Below, one piece after another: positions 16,814 to 24,589 of a stretch of DNA of 64,000 bases (position 1 is the stretch's first letter; every line of letters starts with the position of its first letter). Made by a program: the position numbers and the translations under genes. The notes under the pieces were generated by a model. It worked only from the letters and a program-made list of their open reading frames with translations, did no database searches and was not told the DNA's origin. This DNA is from Leucobacter chromiireducens subsp. chromiireducens (GTDB taxonomy: Bacteria; Actinomycetota; Actinomycetes; Actinomycetales; Microbacteriaceae). The stretch covers positions 496,001 through 560,000 of the forward strand of contig NZ_QYAD01000002.1 in NCBI RefSeq assembly GCF_016758255.1, given 5' to 3'.

Positions 16814-17524
16814 CTAGCGCCCCGCGGCCCGCCCCGCGGTCTGCTCGGCGGAGTCGAGCAGCGTTGTGACGCCGAGCATAAACGTCTTGCGGTCCTCGAG
16901 ATCAGCGAGGGGGCCGGTGAACCGCGCGATCTGTGGATACGTGCGCGGGTCGGCGAGGATGGGGCCATCAAACCAGGGCGAGGTCTCCGGGGACGGGTCG
17001 AGCTCACCGCTCTCGATGCGCGCGCGGGCGATTCCAGAGGCGGTCGACAGGATGTACGACGACAGTAGTGCGTAGTGCTGCACGACGTCGGCGGGTGGGA
17101 GCCCAGCGCGGTCGAGTGAATCGAGAAGCAGCTCTATGGCCCCGAGCTCGCCCGGTCCGTGTGTGGTCAGCACCATTGCCTCGGCGGCGATGGACGGGTG
17201 CGCAGCGTATTCGCGCAGTGTTCCCTCGGCGAGCTCTATCACGCGACCACGCCAGTCCTCGGCCGGGGCCTCGATTGTCGCGAGGGCGCGAACGTGCAGC
17301 TCGTCGAGGAGCACCTCCATCAGGTGGCCTTTGCTGCGGAAATGGCGGTAAATCGCGGAGGGGTCCACTCCGAGGCTCAGCCCCAGAGCCTTTGCCGAAA
17401 ACTCGTTCGATCGGGTTTCGGCGGCAACAGCGAGGCCGGCGGCGACGATCATGTCGACGTCGAGGCGCACCTTTCGTGCGCCGGACCGGCCTCGCGTTGG
17501 TGCGGTGGCGGGCGTCGTGGTCAT
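16814..17524 (-). CDS. TetR-family transcriptional regulator
   Basis: 236 residues. Helix-turn-helix FSAKALGLSLGVDPSAIYRHF (around residues 42-62) follows a short basic N-terminus; the larger C-terminal domain resembles the TetR/AcrR group with a TetR_C-like ligand pocket. It is divergent from the amidohydrolase/importer operon, with a 31-base palindrome in the 170-base gap. It almost certainly represses that operon and itself. Convergent with the preceding TetR gene (24-base gap), but the two are not closely similar. Confidence 0.92.
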   Translation of the reverse strand: MTTTPATAPTRGRSGARKVRLDVDMIVAAGLAVAAETRSNEFSAKALGLSLGVDPSAIYRHFRSKGHLMEVLLDELHVRALATIEAPAEDWRGRVIELAEGTLREYAAHPSIAAEAMVLTTHGPGELGAIELLLDSLDRAGLPPADVVQHYALLSSYILSTASGIARARIESGELDPSPETSPWFDGPILADPRTYPQIARFTGPLADLEDRKTFMLGVTTLLDSAEQTAGRAAGR

Positions 17525-17609
17525 TCGATTCCTTCCCTCGGCCCAGCGTAGAGCATCTCGTGCGGGAGGCGGGGCATTGTGGGCGGCGGGCTAGAAAAAC
17601 ACGGTGACA

Positions 17610-17640
17610 CCACCTTTGTCAAAGGCTTTGACAAAGGTGG
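17610..17640. promoter_or_regulatory. 31-base nested palindrome covering two divergent -35 boxes
   Basis: The arm CCACCTTTGTCAAAG at 17610-17624 is perfectly mirrored at 17626-17640 around G17625. Each arm also contains its own small palindrome, CTTTGTCAAAG and CTTTGACAAAG. TTGACA occurs on both strands: at 17628-17633 on plus, followed after 18 bases by TACGCT (17652-17657), and as TGTCAA at 17617-17622 for the minus direction. Occupancy would shut both the TetR gene and the operon. Confidence 0.8.
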
Positions 17641-17694
17641 CCGTTCTCCCGTACGCTCCATCTCATTCCGATTCAAAGTCGAACAAGGAGTGAG

Positions 17695-19350
17695 ATGCCG
17701 AGCGAAGTATTGTTCATCGGAGGGGCCGTCTTCACCGGGAGCGGGGAACCGCAGCGCGGTGTCGCCGTCGCGGTGACCGGCGGTCGCATCACCGCGGTGG
17801 TGCCCGAAGCTGATGCTGAGGCGCTGGCCGGACCGGATACCCGCAGGGTCGACCTGGCGGGGGCCCTCCTCTCGCCCGGGTTTCAAGACGCGCACATCCA
17901 CCCGATCAGCGGCGGTGTCGAATCGCTGCAGTGCGATCTGACCGCGTCGGAGAACGCGGCGGATGCCGTGCGCTTGATCGCGGAGTATGCGGCGGCCGCA
18001 CCGGCGGAGCCCTGGATTCTGGGCGGTGGCTGGTCCATGGACCACTTCCCTGGAGGTGCGCCAACGCGCGGGCTCATCGACGCGGTGACGCTCGATCGCC
18101 CGGTGCTGCTGATGAGCCGTGACCACCACAGCACGTGGGCAAACACCGCGGCGATCCGCGCGGCGGGGCTCGACGCCGAGACGCCGGACCCCGAGGACGG
18201 ACGCATCGAGCGCGAAGCCGACGGCTTCCCCGCCGGCACCTTTCACGAGGGCGCTGGAGCACTGTTCGATCACGTGAAGCCGGCGCTCTCGGAAGAGCTC
18301 ATCTACCGTGGTCTGTTGCGGGCACAGGATGACCTGATCGCCCAGGGCATCACCGGCTGGCAGGACGCCTGGGTCGGTGCAGACGGGCCGGGCGCCGGCA
18401 CACTCGAAGCATACGAGCGCGCAATTGACGAGGGCACCCTCAAAGTCCACGTGGTCGGCTCCCAGTGGTGGGAGCGTGATCGGGGGATCGAGCAGATCGC
18501 CGAAAAGATTGCTCGTCGTGACACGCGCGAGGCGAGCGGAACGGCAGATCGCTTCTCGCTCGGCACCGTCAAAATGATGGTCGACGGGGTCGCCGAAAAC
18601 TTCACCGCCGCAATGATTGAGCCGTACCTCGACGAACAGGGACACAGCACCTGCAACCACGGGATCTCCTTTATCGCTCCCGAAATTCTCGAGGCGGCGG
18701 TGACCCAGCTCGACGCCGCGGGCATGCAGGTGCACTTCCATGCGCTCGGGGATCGCGCCGTGCGCGACGCACTCGACGCGGTGGCTGCGGCTCGTGCCGC
18801 AAATGGCGTGAGCGATGCGCGCCACCACCTCGCCCACCTCCAGGTGGTCACCGAGGAGGACGCGAAGCGCTTCGCCGAGGTCGACGCAACGGCCAACATG
18901 CAGATGCTCTGGGCTACGCATGAGGAGCAACTGGACACGCTCACACTCCCGTTCCTGCAAGACGGAGCCGTGAACCGGCAGTACCCGTTCGGTGACCTGG
19001 AGCGCGGCGGCGCCCGCCTCGCTGCCGGCAGCGACTGGCCCGTCTCGACGGCGGACCCGCTCGCCGCGATCCACATCGGTGTCACACGGGTCGGTCCCGA
19101 GATTGATGCGGAGCCGCTCGGCGGAGCCACGCAGCAGCTCGCGCTCAGCACTGCGCTCGCGGCATACACCTCCGGCACGGCGTACGTGAACCATCGAGAC
19201 CACGACACAGGCAGCATCCGCGAGGGCTATCTCGCGAACCTGGTGGTTATCTCGCCCAACCCGTTCGATCTGGATCCCGAAGCGCTGCACACCGCACGCG
19301 TCCGGGAGACCTGGATCGAGGGCGACCTCGTCTACGCACGCGCCGAATAG
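17695..19350 (+). CDS. YtcJ-like amidohydrolase (Amidohydro_3 type)
   Basis: 551 residues; AAGGAG lies 5 bases before the ATG. FIGGAVFTGSGEP opens the fold, DAHIHP at residues 65-70 gives the first metal ligands, followed by SRDHHSTWANT, VHFHALGD, HHLAHLQ and AAGSDWPVS, and a C-terminal NLVVISPNPFDL. These define the N-substituted formamide deformylase/YtcJ group. It is first in an operon with a complete ABC importer and a flavin monooxygenase, so it probably hydrolyses an imported amide, carbamate or formamide (inference). Only moderately similar to the 3154 paralog; different motif spellings argue against recent duplication. Confidence 0.92.
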   Translation: MPSEVLFIGGAVFTGSGEPQRGVAVAVTGGRITAVVPEADAEALAGPDTRRVDLAGALLSPGFQDAHIHPISGGVESLQCDLTASENAADAVRLIAEYAAAAPAEPWILGGGWSMDHFPGGAPTRGLIDAVTLDRPVLLMSRDHHSTWANTAAIRAAGLDAETPDPEDGRIEREADGFPAGTFHEGAGALFDHVKPALSEELIYRGLLRAQDDLIAQGITGWQDAWVGADGPGAGTLEAYERAIDEGTLKVHVVGSQWWERDRGIEQIAEKIARRDTREASGTADRFSLGTVKMMVDGVAENFTAAMIEPYLDEQGHSTCNHGISFIAPEILEAAVTQLDAAGMQVHFHALGDRAVRDALDAVAAARAANGVSDARHHLAHLQVVTEEDAKRFAEVDATANMQMLWATHEEQLDTLTLPFLQDGAVNRQYPFGDLERGGARLAAGSDWPVSTADPLAAIHIGVTRVGPEIDAEPLGGATQQLALSTALAAYTSGTAYVNHRDHDTGSIREGYLANLVVISPNPFDLDPEALHTARVRETWIEGDLVYARAE

Positions 19351-19443
19351 CGCGTCCCGGCCTGATCCACTCTTTCCGCTATTTCCTCACCTTTTCATCC
19401 CCGCACGCGCCTGGCGCTGCACCCACACCCAAGGAGAACACTG

Positions 19444-21087
19444 GTGTTCACACTCTCGAAGCGGAGCCGCGCCCGCGGCGCCGCGCTCATCGCGGGCCTC
19501 GCTGTCGCAGGCGTTACCCTCACCGCCTGTTCAGGCGGCGCCACCTCTGCTGGTCCGATCGAGTGGTCGGTGACGGATCATACGGCGGCGCCGTCGGGTG
19601 AGATTGATCAGGTGACGTGGGCGAGTTACGCGGAGCCGTTCTCGTTGGATTATGCGTATGCGTTTGATTACGCGGATAACCAGGTGCTCGCGAATGTGTG
19701 TGAGTCGTTGTTGCGGTTGAATCCTGATTTTTCGTTGTCGCCGGGGCTTGCGGAGTCGTTTGCGAATCCGACGCCGACGACGTGGGTCTATCAGATTCGT
19801 GATGGGGTGCAGTTTCATGATGGGGCGGTGTTGACGGCTGCGGATGTGGTGGCGTCGATGCGGCGTCATGTGGATCCTGCGGTGGGGTCGTCGTGGGCGA
19901 GTGTGTACCAGAACGTGGTGTCGATTGAGGAGACGGGGCCGCTTGAGGTGACGGTGACGACGAAGATCCCGGATTCTCAGTTCAATTTGGGGATGGGGGG
20001 TTCTGCGGGTGTGGTGGAGTCGGCTGCGACGCTTGCTGCGGCGGGTGCGGATTATGGGAATTCGTCTGGTGGGGTGAATTGCACGGGGCCGTTCCGGTTT
20101 GATTCGTGGAAGTCGGGGGAGAAGATTTCTTTGAGTCGGTTTGATGGGTATTGGGATGCGGGGTTGCGGGCGAAGTCTGAGAAGTTCGACTTCGTCTTCA
20201 TGGCGGACGCGACTGCGCGCACCAATGCACTGAAATCGGGCGAGGCGGATGGCAGCTGGGTGCTGCCACTCGATGCCGCGCGGAATCTCGAGGACGCTGG
20301 CAAGGGCGACGTGCTCTTCGGCATGAACACTGCGGTTTCGAACCTGGTGGTGTCGAACCTAGAGGGGCCGCTCGGCGACCCGCGGGTGCGCAAAGCGCTC
20401 CTCATGGCGATCGACCGGCAGGGGATCCTCGAGGCAATGACGAGCGGCGTGGGCGAGCCCACGGATGTGTTTACGACCGAGTCGGTGTGGGCCGATGGTG
20501 ACCCTGCGGCAACACAGGCCGCGTTCACGGACATCGAGGCGTACCCCTTCGACATCGAGGCCGCCAAACAGCTGATTGAGGAGGCCGGCGCGACCGGTCA
20601 GGAGATCACGATCGCCACTGCGCCGATTAACCAGGAGTTTGCAGTTGTATCGCAGGCCACCGCGGCCGCGGCGAAGGCCATCGGGCTCGAGCCGAAGATC
20701 AACACGGTCACCCCGGCCGCCTACACCACGCTCTTCTCGGACCCGGCCGCGCGCGAGGGCGTCGACCTCTTCTACACGGTCTGGTACCTCTCGAGCCCAG
20801 ACCCGCTCGAGATGTACTCGGTGCTGCGGACCGGTGAGTTCAGCAACTACGGCAACTGGTCGAACCCGGAGTTCGATCAGCTCGTCACCGACGCGGTCTC
20901 GACGATGGATCCCAAGGAGCGCAGCGCGCTCACCGCGCAGGCGCAGCAGCTCGCCAACGCCGAACTGCCCTGGCTGCCACTCGCCGCAGTGCCGAACGCG
21001 ATGTACCTCGGGGAACGAGTCACTGGCCTCTCGCCGTCGATCGCGTTCCTCTACTACCCGTGGGCCGCAACGCTGGGCGCCCGCTAA
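19444..21087 (+). CDS. Peptide/opine-type ABC binding lipoprotein with mosaic codon usage
   Basis: 547 residues from a GTG with AAGGAG 6 bases upstream. The signal peptide ends LTAC, giving lipidated Cys29. The rest is an SBP_bac_5 fold (ANVCESLLRLNPDFSLSPGL, WVYQIRDGVQFHDGAVLTAADV, GTGPF-type motif as CTGPFRF). It binds the solute for the following permeases. Codons 40-247 (19561-20184) almost never end in C (12 of 208 by hand count) whereas codons 1-39 have 23 C-endings and the remainder also favours C. The protein reads through without interruption, so the gene looks like an in-frame recombinant. Confidence 0.93.
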   Translation: MFTLSKRSRARGAALIAGLAVAGVTLTACSGGATSAGPIEWSVTDHTAAPSGEIDQVTWASYAEPFSLDYAYAFDYADNQVLANVCESLLRLNPDFSLSPGLAESFANPTPTTWVYQIRDGVQFHDGAVLTAADVVASMRRHVDPAVGSSWASVYQNVVSIEETGPLEVTVTTKIPDSQFNLGMGGSAGVVESAATLAAAGADYGNSSGGVNCTGPFRFDSWKSGEKISLSRFDGYWDAGLRAKSEKFDFVFMADATARTNALKSGEADGSWVLPLDAARNLEDAGKGDVLFGMNTAVSNLVVSNLEGPLGDPRVRKALLMAIDRQGILEAMTSGVGEPTDVFTTESVWADGDPAATQAAFTDIEAYPFDIEAAKQLIEEAGATGQEITIATAPINQEFAVVSQATAAAAKAIGLEPKINTVTPAAYTTLFSDPAAREGVDLFYTVWYLSSPDPLEMYSVLRTGEFSNYGNWSNPEFDQLVTDAVSTMDPKERSALTAQAQQLANAELPWLPLAAVPNAMYLGERVTGLSPSIAFLYYPWAATLGAR

Positions 21088-21099
21088 CCTCACCCCGTC

Positions 21100-21128
21100 T
21101 CGGGCGGCGGCAGCACGCCGCCGCCCGA
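21100..21128 (+). terminator. Attenuator hairpin between binding-protein and permease genes
   Basis: TCGGGCGGCGG at 21100-21110 pairs perfectly with 21118-21128 around a 7-base loop, in the 63-base gap after the binding-protein stop. As in the Liv-type operon at 10275, it probably lowers expression of the downstream membrane genes relative to the binding protein. Confidence 0.7.
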
Positions 21129-21150
21129 AACCCTGATCGGAGAAACGACG

Positions 21151-22107
21151 ATGATGTACGTGCGCCGTATCGCATCCAAACTGGGTGCGCTCCTGCTCAC
21201 GCTGTTTCTCGCCTCCCTGCTCGTCTTCTTCTCGCGCTTTATCGTTCCGGGCGATCCCGTCCGGTTCCTCTTGCGCGGGCGGAAGCCGAGCCCGGAAGCG
21301 GTTGCCGCGGTGACTGAGCAGTATGGACTCAACCTGCCCCCCTGGGAGCAGTACTTTAACTGGCTGTTCGGTATCTTCCGGGGCGACTTCGGCCGCTCCC
21401 TGCAATTCCGTCAGGATGTATCGACGGTCATTGGCGACCGCCTGTCTGTCACCCTGGGGCTCGTCGTCATGGCCGGCCTGATGATCGCGATCGTGGGCAT
21501 CAGCTCCGGCGTCATCGCTGCGCTGAACAAGGGAAAGCTTGCCGACCGGGCCACGCTGATCTTCCTCACGGTGCTCGGTGCGATCCCCTCGTTCGTTGGG
21601 GCCATCGTGCTCATCTCGGTGTTTGCCGTGACGCTCGGGTGGTTCCCGACCTTCGGCTCGGGAACCGGCTTCTGGGACACGGTGTACCACCTGTTCCTGC
21701 CTTCCCTCGCGTTGGCCATCTCCTTCGTCGTGCTGATCGGCAAGGTGACACGGTCCTCCATGGTCGAACAGATCGGCCGCGAACACGTCGAGGTCGCACT
21801 GAGCCGCGGAATCAAGCGCGGCACGGTGATCCGCCGCCACGTCTTCCGAAACTCGATCGGCCCGATTGTCACGGTGAGCGGCCTGCTTGTCGCGGGTCTG
21901 CTTGTCGCGAGCACGATCGTTGAGTCCGCCTTCGGTATTTCGGGGCTGGGCTCGCTGCTCGTGCAGTCGGTCGACCGACTCGACTTCCCGGTTGTGCAGA
22001 TGATTGTCCTCCTTGTCGTCACCGCCTTTGTAGTGGTGAACGCTGTGGTCGACCTGCTCGAACCCCTCATTGACCCCCGTGCCGCCGCAGGAGCTGATGC
22101 GCGATGA
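21151..22107 (+). CDS. ABC transporter permease, DppB type
   Basis: 318 residues with about six membrane segments. The first helix (ALLLTLFLASLLVFFSRFIV) is followed by VPGDPVRFLLRG and the EAA loop (EQIGREHVEVALSRGIKRGTVIRRHVFRNS, described in outline), typical of DppB/OppB. It pairs with the next gene to form the channel. Its last codon overlaps the start of the next gene as ATGA. Two adjacent ATGs at 21151 and 21154 are both possible starts. Confidence 0.92.
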   Translation: MMYVRRIASKLGALLLTLFLASLLVFFSRFIVPGDPVRFLLRGRKPSPEAVAAVTEQYGLNLPPWEQYFNWLFGIFRGDFGRSLQFRQDVSTVIGDRLSVTLGLVVMAGLMIAIVGISSGVIAALNKGKLADRATLIFLTVLGAIPSFVGAIVLISVFAVTLGWFPTFGSGTGFWDTVYHLFLPSLALAISFVVLIGKVTRSSMVEQIGREHVEVALSRGIKRGTVIRRHVFRNSIGPIVTVSGLLVAGLLVASTIVESAFGISGLGSLLVQSVDRLDFPVVQMIVLLVVTAFVVVNAVVDLLEPLIDPRAAAGADAR

Positions 22108-22970
22108 CGATCCCTAATCCCACGACCGCGGTGCGCGTGATGCGCGCGCCGCGAGTGCGACGCTCGAGCTGGCTCTTTCTGTCCAGCGTGATCGTGCTCG
22201 GCGCAGTGACGCTCGCCGCGGCACTCGCCCCGTTTGTTGCTCCCTACGACCCCGACGCGGTCGACTTCATGGCATTCAACGGCGGGCCGACCGCCGCCCA
22301 CTGGCTGGGCACCGACGGTCTCGGCCGCGATATCCTCAGCCGCATGATCTGGGGCGCGCGCACCGCGCTCCTTGGCCCGCTGCTCGTTGTCGTGTTCTCC
22401 ACGATCGTCGGCATCCTGCTCGGCCTCCTCGCCGCGTGGCGCGGCGGGTGGGTCGACGCCGTGCTCGGGCGCATTTTCGACGTGATCTTCGCGTTCCCCG
22501 CGCTCTTGATCGGGATCATGGCTGTCGCGCTGTTCGGCAAGGGCCTCGTCGCCCCGGTCATCGCGATGAGCCTCGCCTACGCGCCCTTCGTCGCACGCCT
22601 GACGCGCTCGCTCATCACCGCCGAGCGCAACCGTCCATACGTTGCGGCGTACCGGGTGCAGGGCTTCAGCGGCTCCTGGATCGCGCTTCGACGCGTGCTT
22701 CCCAACGTCGTGCCCATCGTCGGCGCGCAGTCGACGCTCAACTTCGGCTACGTGCTCGCCGAGCTCGCTGGCCTTTCCTTCCTGGGCCTCGGTGTCCAGG
22801 CGCCCACGGCCGACTGGGGCGCGATGATCAACGAGGCGCAGCCAGGCATCGCTGGCGGGCATTTCTTGCCCGCGGTGGTGCCGGCGATCGCGGTTGTCAT
22901 CGTCGTGGTTGCCGTCAACATCATCGGCGAGGAACTCTCGGAACGAATCGGAGGGGGTGTGTCCGCATGA
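22104..22970 (+). CDS. ABC transporter permease, DppC type
   Basis: 288 residues. It has a cytoplasmic basic N-terminus, a first helix, then HWLGTDGLGRDILSRMIWGAR, the conserved DppC/OppC entry loop, and the EAA loop near RPYVAAYRVQGFSGSWIALR. Coupled by ATGA overlaps both to the DppB-like gene before it and to the ATPase after it, so all three are made together. Confidence 0.92.
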   Translation: MTIPNPTTAVRVMRAPRVRRSSWLFLSSVIVLGAVTLAAALAPFVAPYDPDAVDFMAFNGGPTAAHWLGTDGLGRDILSRMIWGARTALLGPLLVVVFSTIVGILLGLLAAWRGGWVDAVLGRIFDVIFAFPALLIGIMAVALFGKGLVAPVIAMSLAYAPFVARLTRSLITAERNRPYVAAYRVQGFSGSWIALRRVLPNVVPIVGAQSTLNFGYVLAELAGLSFLGLGVQAPTADWGAMINEAQPGIAGGHFLPAVVPAIAVVIVVVAVNIIGEELSERIGGGVSA

Positions 22971-24589
22971 CACTGCTCAACATCGAAGACCTGACCCTTG
23001 ACCTGCCGAACGGCAAGCGCCTGCTCGACGGCATCTCGATTCGCGTCGAGGCAGGCGAAACGATTGGCCTCGTGGGGGAGTCCGGCTCGGGGAAGTCGCT
23101 CACCGCGCGCTCTGTGCTCGGTCTCCTTCCCGGCGGGGCGATCACCGGGGGCAGCGTGAGCTGCGATGGCCGGGAAGTGCTCGGCGCCTCGAAGCGCGAG
23201 CTGCTGTCGGTGCGACGCTCGAGCGCGGCGATGATCTTCCAGGATCCGCGAGCGGGGATCAACCCGATGCGCACGATCGGCGACCACATGACCGAGTCGT
23301 TGCGGCTGTGCCAAGGGGTCTCGTCGAGTGCGGCTCGCATCAAGGCGCTCGAACTGCTTCGCGCCGTTCGGCTCCCGCGACCCGAGGACCACCTGGGACA
23401 GTATCCGCACGAGTTCTCGGGCGGCATGCTGCAGCGCGTCATGATTGCCGGCGCGCTGTCGAGCGAGCCGAAGCTGCTCATCTGCGATGAGCCGACCACC
23501 GCGCTCGACGTGACCACGCAGGCCGAGATCATCCAGGTGCTCCAGGAGCAGCGCGCGGCGCGCGGCATGGGCATGCTCTTCATCACGCACGACCTCAACC
23601 TGGCCGCCTCGATCTGCGATCGCGTGTACGTGATGAGCGGCGGCAGCGTCGTCGAGCAGGGCGGCGCACGTGAGATATTCACAGCGCCGACCGCCGACTA
23701 CACGAAGCGGCTCATCGCGGCGACGCCGAGCGTCGAGGTCGACCCGGCGGAAACTGTGGCGTCGCGTGCCGGCGTTGCCTCCGAGGGTGCGGCCGCGGCT
23801 GGGGGCGACTCCCCGCTGGTGCTCGTGGAGGGGCTCTCGAAGACCTACCACCCGCGTGGCCGCGAGGCGGTGCACGCGGTGCGCGATGCGTCACTCACGA
23901 TCCCGCGCGGCGGATCCCTCGGCGTCGTGGGCGAGTCCGGTTCGGGCAAGTCCACCCTCGCGCGCATGATCATCGGGCTCGAGCAGGCAGACTCGGGCGT
24001 GCTGCGGATCGGCGGCGCCGAGCGCACCGCGGTGCCGAAGGGGCGGGACGCGCGGCTGGCCCGCGCGCGCAGCGCCCAGATGGTGTTCCAGGATCCCTAC
24101 CTTTCGCTCGATCCCCGCATTCCTGTGGGCCGCGCGATTGAGGACACGCTTCGGTTGCACACCGGGCTGACGCCGGCGGAAGCGACGCGCCGGGCGCTCG
24201 CGCTGCTTGACGACGTCGGGCTCCAGGCGGAGCACGCGCAGGCGCTGCCGCGGACCCTCTCGGGCGGGCAGCGACAGCGCGTGGCCATCGCGCGCGCGAT
24301 CGCGATCGAGCCGCAACTGCTCGTGATGGATGAGGCGACAAGCGCGCTCGATGTCTCGGTGCAGGCGCAGGTGCTCGATCTGCTCGCCCGCGTTCGTGCG
24401 GAGCAGGGGCTGACGATTCTCTTCATCAGCCACGACCTCGGCGTGGTGCGGCGGGTGTGCGACGAGACCCTCGTGATGCGTCGCGGCGAGATCGTGGAGA
24501 GCGGTCCGACCGAGGCGCTGCTCAGCACGCCGCAGCACGACTACACCCGAATGCTCATCGACTCGGTGCCGCGCCCAGCCTGGGCCTGA
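22967..24589 (+). CDS. Fused DppD-DppF-type dual ATPase
   Basis: 540 residues from the ATG at 22967 (GAGGGGG upstream, ATGA overlap). It contains two complete ABC domains: Walker A GESGSGKS at 37-44 and again at 322-329, signatures FSGGMLQRVMIAGAL and LSGGQRQRVAIARAI, and Walker B in LLICDEPTTALDV and LLVMDEATSALDV. Both halves keep their catalytic motifs, so both sites should work. Peptide, nickel and opine importers usually have two separate ATPases; this fusion is known in actinobacteria. It is the energy unit for the 19444-22970 importer. Confidence 0.93.
   Translation: MTLLNIEDLTLDLPNGKRLLDGISIRVEAGETIGLVGESGSGKSLTARSVLGLLPGGAITGGSVSCDGREVLGASKRELLSVRRSSAAMIFQDPRAGINPMRTIGDHMTESLRLCQGVSSSAARIKALELLRAVRLPRPEDHLGQYPHEFSGGMLQRVMIAGALSSEPKLLICDEPTTALDVTTQAEIIQVLQEQRAARGMGMLFITHDLNLAASICDRVYVMSGGSVVEQGGAREIFTAPTADYTKRLIAATPSVEVDPAETVASRAGVASEGAAAAGGDSPLVLVEGLSKTYHPRGREAVHAVRDASLTIPRGGSLGVVGESGSGKSTLARMIIGLEQADSGVLRIGGAERTAVPKGRDARLARARSAQMVFQDPYLSLDPRIPVGRAIEDTLRLHTGLTPAEATRRALALLDDVGLQAEHAQALPRTLSGGQRQRVAIARAIAIEPQLLVMDEATSALDVSVQAQVLDLLARVRAEQGLTILFISHDLGVVRRVCDETLVMRRGEIVESGPTEALLSTPQHDYTRMLIDSVPRPAWA

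Follow-up and report, generated by a model that had tools for sequence, protein, structure and literature searches.

A substrate-binding lipoprotein gene of Leucobacter chromiireducens subsp. chromiireducens, located in the 64,000 bp stretch of DNA analysed here (the window), carries an internal block of 208 codons (codons 40-247, 19561..20184, + strand) whose third bases are 133 G, 63 T, 12 C and no A, bordered on both sides by ordinary codon usage. Our favoured reading, to which we assign a probability of roughly 0.45, is that a normal gene acquired, by in-frame recombination, an orthologous segment with a history of strongly G/T-biased evolution. Whether imported or made in place, the block splits codon-level from protein-level evolution within a single gene, and it calls for caution in composition-based detection of horizontal gene transfer, as composition shifts strongly here while protein phylogeny hardly shifts at all.

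The gene and its surroundings

The source genome comprises 3.22 Mb in six contigs, and its nearest named relatives are Leucobacter. The gene (19444..21087, + strand) begins with GTG, encodes 547 residues and has orthologs in Leucobacter; its product matches the SBP_bac_5 family (PF00496) with an E value of 6.2e-70 and 236.6 bits, relative to a gathering score of 32.4, and a search of solved structures with the protein confirmed the family and gave nothing beyond it. In its 5' part (19444..19545, the edge being that of the likelihood fit described below) ordinary C-rich codons encode what reads as a signal peptide, together with the motif LTACSGG, which we take to be lipobox-like. Directly 3' of the gene are two BPD_transp_1 permeases (21151..22107 and 22104..22970, the second also with an OppC_N domain) and a double ATP-binding protein (two ABC_tran domains and oligo_HPY, 22967..24589), constituting an Opp/Dpp-type transporter setting; upstream is an amidohydrolase (Amidohydro_3, 17695..19350) that is syntenic in four relatives. 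All are on the + strand. The order of these five genes is conserved in L. sp. PH1c, L. chromiireducens LYC-2, L. chromiireducens subsp. solipictus and L. luti at 78-95% protein identity, and the four neighbour genes (substrate-binding gene excluded) are ordinary in codon usage, having 0.51-0.69 of synonymous codons in common with the same four relatives. For the parts of the substrate-binding gene that flank the block, relatives were obtained from protein searches. As a whole, the gene is best explained as an ordinary Leucobacter gene for a peptide/nickel-type ABC substrate-binding protein, inherited vertically.

No Rfam element or riboswitch was found in 17000-22500, and a promoter and terminator scan returned one promoter-like and two terminator-like sites. 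Flanking repeats were considered as marks of mobility and rejected, since only short, imperfect ones of a chance-like kind are present.

Composition, edges and direction of the change

Third-base composition changes abruptly at both ends of the block. The 39 codons before it contain C 23, G 7, T 6 and A 3 at third positions, and the 301 codons after it (248-548, stop included) contain C 132, G 127, T 23 and A 19; the hand count in the initial annotation, 12 of 208 C-ending codons in the block and 23 of 39 before it, proved exact on recount. The 196 G- or T-ending codons of the block have a binomial log10 p of -48 against the genome G+T third-base rate of 0.471, taken from 547 long ORFs. A three-segment maximum-likelihood fit places the block at 19546-20184 with a gain of 84.5 nats (the best of 30 permutation controls, run on a coarser edge grid, gained 15.3 nats), and ordinary usage returns immediately at codon 248, where five C-ending codons follow in succession (248-252), the same as in PH1c; both results uphold the abruptness claimed in the initial annotation. 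The interior is uniform, with 83-100% G/T-ending codons in every 30-codon bin wholly inside the block and a GC skew of 0.35-0.43 in the three 300-base intervals entirely within it. The left edge falls in a poorly conserved stretch and the right edge in a strongly conserved tract, the right junction occupying a 25-residue stretch (20185..20259, FDFVFMADATARTNALKSGEADGSW) that is identical in the window and PH1c.

Fourfold sites in the block are G 94, T 20, C 2 and A 0 (approximately 81% G, 17% T, 2% C and 0% A), a make-up that to our knowledge matches no known genome; those in the gene 3' of the block are G 82, C 75, A 13 and T 11. Similarly, NNY codons end in T 39 times and in C 9 times within the block, as opposed to 10 and 48 times 3' of it. 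Leucine is encoded by TTG in nine cases, CTT in three, CTC in one and CTG in none, and because the first C of CTG can silently turn to T, the absence of CTG together with frequent TTG is what a bias on bases, not on codons, would produce. The 12 NNC codons that were kept have, by eye, no obvious sequence context.

The change is directional rather than a general hypermutation. Among codons that are identical in PH1c and LYC-2 and whose residue is kept in the window, alteration in the block affects 68 of 77 that end in C and 2 of 26 that end in G; outside the block the counts are 18 of 85 and 19 of 64 (Fisher p = 8e-19 for C-ending and 0.03 for G-ending codons, block versus rest). Six control comparisons of other lineages have no such split at C-ending codons (lowest p 0.052, UBA1945), and at G-ending codons a single one deviates (PH1c, p 0.038), in the opposite direction. 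Silent third-base changes in the block, counted at codons identical in PH1c and LYC-2, are 38 C>T and 30 C>G versus one G>C and one G>T; the block thus has the C>T and C>G changes, coordinated on one strand, that mark deaminase-type clustered mutation. Where the window alone has changed an amino acid, the direction is the same: at codon positions 1-2 in the block, A/C to G/T changes outnumber the reverse 9:1 (p 0.02), rising to 12:1 (p 0.003) when either of two other reference pairs is used, while the corresponding ratios in the rest of the gene are 5:5, 7:5 and 3:12 for the three reference pairs. The numbers in this test are small, one control row out of 14 (block and rest for each of seven comparisons) is itself unbalanced (PH1c, rest, 10:2, p 0.04), and so is the window's own rest with one reference pair (3:12, p 0.035). 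Together these observations point to a bias that acts on the bases of one strand, beyond codon choice alone.

At the protein level the window and PH1c are 0.85 identical in the block and 0.88 identical in the 3' part that follows (20185..21084, ordinary codon use). The block protein is 0.75-0.83 identical to ten other Leucobacter orthologs, and PH1c is 0.74-0.87 identical to those same ten. By contrast, codon identity at residues common to the window and PH1c is 0.36 in the block and 0.64 after it; with the other ten orthologs it is 0.37-0.49 in the block, the higher values belonging to the A/T-richer Leucobacter cx-328 and cx-42. The suggestion in the initial annotation that the block could alter ligand specificity thus goes unsupported, the block protein appearing, on sequence comparison, approximately as conserved as in other species pairs. 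Codon 46 (19579-19581, CAT), which lies within the recoded block, encodes H in the window and Q in the database protein P0002, the sole residue at which the two differ; Q46 is found in all 11 aligned Leucobacter orthologs.

Homologs, comparable segments and candidate donors

The same codon pattern in close relatives, which the initial annotation had named as the finding that would count against it, occurs in none of 107 other homologous loci (at least seven genomes being present twice, and loci L029 and L030 contributing no row). The highest 30-codon bin seen among them is 73% G/T-ending, compared with 83-100% in the block, and a trait shared across the lineage is therefore rejected. Codon log-odds, computed with third-base weights derived from the block itself, are +205 bits for the block and range from -370 to -194 bits for the homologous stretches. 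In Leucobacter cx-328 and cx-42 (L107 and L037) the first six 30-codon bins of the ortholog are 50-70% G/T-ending and later bins 33-57% and 33-63%, respectively; the orthologs of both strains are also A/T-richer at third positions.

A log-odds scan of 2.46 of the 3.22 Mb (~76% of the genome) returned the block as its top segment (208.5 bits) among 346 segments of at least 25 bits. The best 30 of these 346 were inspected by eye and, save for the block and one weak candidate, have translations and base make-up that look like those of non-coding frames over low-complexity genes. Among these 30, from the 2.46 Mb scanned, the block was the one convincing coding case. The weak candidate in the same genome is a candidate start at L250 9334-9537 (42.8 bits). 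The same scan over 1.3 Mb of relatives gave 176 segments, the best at 78 bits (best 30 of 176 inspected). Membership of the block in a genome-wide usage class, such as that of highly expressed or phage-like genes, was considered and is unsupported by the 30 best segments of the 2.46 Mb log-odds scan. Contig C2 contains a run of 3144 N (L131:8954-12097).

Searches for a donor used the DNA of the block. In the genus, 24 of 54 genomes matched, the best match besides the window's own genome being 75% identical and derived from ordinary C-rich orthologs; the family gave matches in 32 of 398 genomes and the order in 18 of 396, none closer than 75%, and many of the matches in the order set were short. 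These sets overlap, each counts the window's own genome, and 10, 2 and 2 candidate places, respectively, were scored per genome. No recoded ortholog was found at the 2 to 10 places scored per genome in any of the three sets. The plasmid search returned a single match of 64.6% to a Streptomyces record, the phage search gave no match, and IMG/VR gave no viral relative. Phylogeny was assessed with quickly built protein trees, each containing 36 rows: the window plus 35 of 119 other listed proteins. In the tree of the rest of the protein, the window and PH1c are joined with an SH-aLRT of 97; in the block tree, the window, PH1c and LYC-2 are grouped with an SH-aLRT of 88 and no supported branching order among the three, and forcing the window together with PH1c is not rejected (p-AU 0.30). 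The block protein appears to remain in the clade that holds the rest. The end branch leading to the window measures 0.16 for the block and 0.065 for the rest, compared with 0.10 and 0.091 for PH1c. The check proposed in the initial annotation, whether best matches of the block and its flanks come from different lineages, turned up no donor: the best genus matches are those C-rich orthologs, and the block protein groups with PH1c and LYC-2, as the rest does.

Origin of the block

We infer both the movement of the block and the nature of its donor. An orthologous segment of approximately 620-640 bp would have entered the gene by in-frame homologous recombination or gene conversion, following long evolution in a context where the coding strand strongly favours G and T at the expense of C and A, a phase in which purifying selection on the protein would have been maintained; its source may have been an unsampled lineage or a strand-asymmetric replicon. 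Two abrupt edges around a uniform interior argue for such an exchange, as do the position of the right edge in a strongly conserved tract, where joints are expected, the directional change with amino-acid changes biased the same way, the lack of CTG alongside nine TTG, and an end branch that is longer in the block than in the rest. The in-frame recombination proposed in the initial annotation is partly supported: it fits the sharp edges, the uniform interior and the longer block branch, but the donor lineage it called for was not found: neither a recoded ortholog nor closer DNA came from the genus, family, order, plasmid, phage or IMG/VR searches. The clade of the block also appears unchanged, which means that a donor would need to sit beside this clade yet differ strongly from it in third bases. 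The left edge lies outside any conserved tract, the fourfold-site make-up of the block is not known from any genome, and no second convincing coding block appeared among the 30 best segments of the genome scan; these likewise weigh against import. If the block was imported, it implies a close relative or a replicon whose coding-strand composition is not known from sequenced genomes.

Since no donor emerged and the clade of the block appears unchanged, strand-directed substitution in situ is a live rival to recombination, albeit a somewhat unlikely one. Here the coding strand would have been repeatedly single-stranded and would have lost C (and A) through C>T, C>G and A>G changes, while purifying selection kept the protein. 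The strongly one-sided C>T and C>G counts, in a mix that resembles a reported deaminase signature, agree with this, as does an amino-acid bias that operates at the level of bases; the sharp edges without a gradient, the excess of G over T at fourfold sites (94:20, unlike plain deamination) and the lack of any other convincing coding stretch among the segments inspected in 2.46 Mb do not. More generally, and rather doubtfully, a bacterial process may rewrite a bounded stretch inside a gene toward G/T on the coding strand, nearly to saturation of silent sites and with the protein kept, either as a fixed kataegis-like substitution island or by conversion from a copy on a strongly strand-asymmetric replicon. 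If made in place, the block would be an island of strand-directed substitution with defined bounds that has become fixed within a bacterial gene.

Selection on the nucleic acid itself, for example for an unstructured and C-rich antisense strand (Rho loading on antisense transcripts) or for a G-rich sense strand (R-loop, G-quadruplex), is improbable. Antisense pieces of 120 nt do have a mean fold energy of -19.5 in the block and -34.6 to -52.3 in 11 orthologs, and the block has one G-quadruplex motif and 21 G-runs where the same orthologs have none and 8-12; however, weak antisense folding and G-runs are both automatic outcomes of a G/T bias, the mean fold energy of the sense strand is ordinary (-40.0, 120-nt pieces), none of the homologous loci compared is alike, no Rfam element was found, and the amino-acid bias would be left unexplained. 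Sharp edges and the fit of 196 of 208 codons to an NNK scheme could also suggest human-made synonymous recoding that got into the sequenced strain, but this is very improbable given mixed codons for each amino acid, the 12 residual NNC codons and 17 amino-acid differences from residues common to PH1c and LYC-2, with nine of the ten class-changing bases at positions 1-2 among those differences sharing one direction; in addition, P0002, which comes from another assembly (longest contig 3,162,189 bases), differs by just one residue. P0002 also has, at the protein level, the same block-specific residues apart from H46, and an assembly or sequencing artefact is accordingly the least probable explanation we considered. 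Misassembly of the block appears unlikely, to judge from the intact frame and protein and its 85% identity to PH1c, and its codons would not arise by joining pieces of the orthologs that were compared.

Among known systems, mosaic alleles formed by intragenic recombination (pneumococcal penicillin-binding protein gene fragments, Campylobacter introgression), as described in abstracts, resemble the block in being sharp in-frame blocks in an orthologous gene with the frame kept. The block is unlike them in that its donor was not found and its protein is hardly changed. In the mosaic alleles known, donors are identifiable relatives, and the alleles differ in sequence rather than in an extreme one-strand base regime. 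Kataegis by cytosine deaminases, again at the level of abstracts, shares with the block a clustered, kilobase-scale loss of C (as T or G) that is coordinated on one strand; unlike kataegis, the block is fixed in a bacterial gene, near silent saturation, filtered by selection on the protein and strongly enriched in G at fourfold sites. Replicon-wide GC skew likewise produces an excess of G and T on one strand, but the block is limited to ~620 bp and the neighbour genes are C-rich or balanced. No matching case was found among the titles and abstract openings that the literature searches returned.

Plain G/T scans of the sequence returned mostly shadow frames, and their sole lead was a pair of adjacent ABC ATPase genes at one end of contig C1 in the same genome (minus strand, L139:6849-7772 and L139:10029-10844). 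In 30-codon bins the two are 69-94% identical over the first 150 aligned codons and 97-100% identical beyond, a pattern resembling gene conversion over a few hundred bases. Within this shared tract, the first 60 codons have a mild shift toward G/T-ending codons (log-odds +6 to +13 per bin, negative thereafter) with frequent TTG, and the pair may be a weaker case of the G/T shift found in the block.
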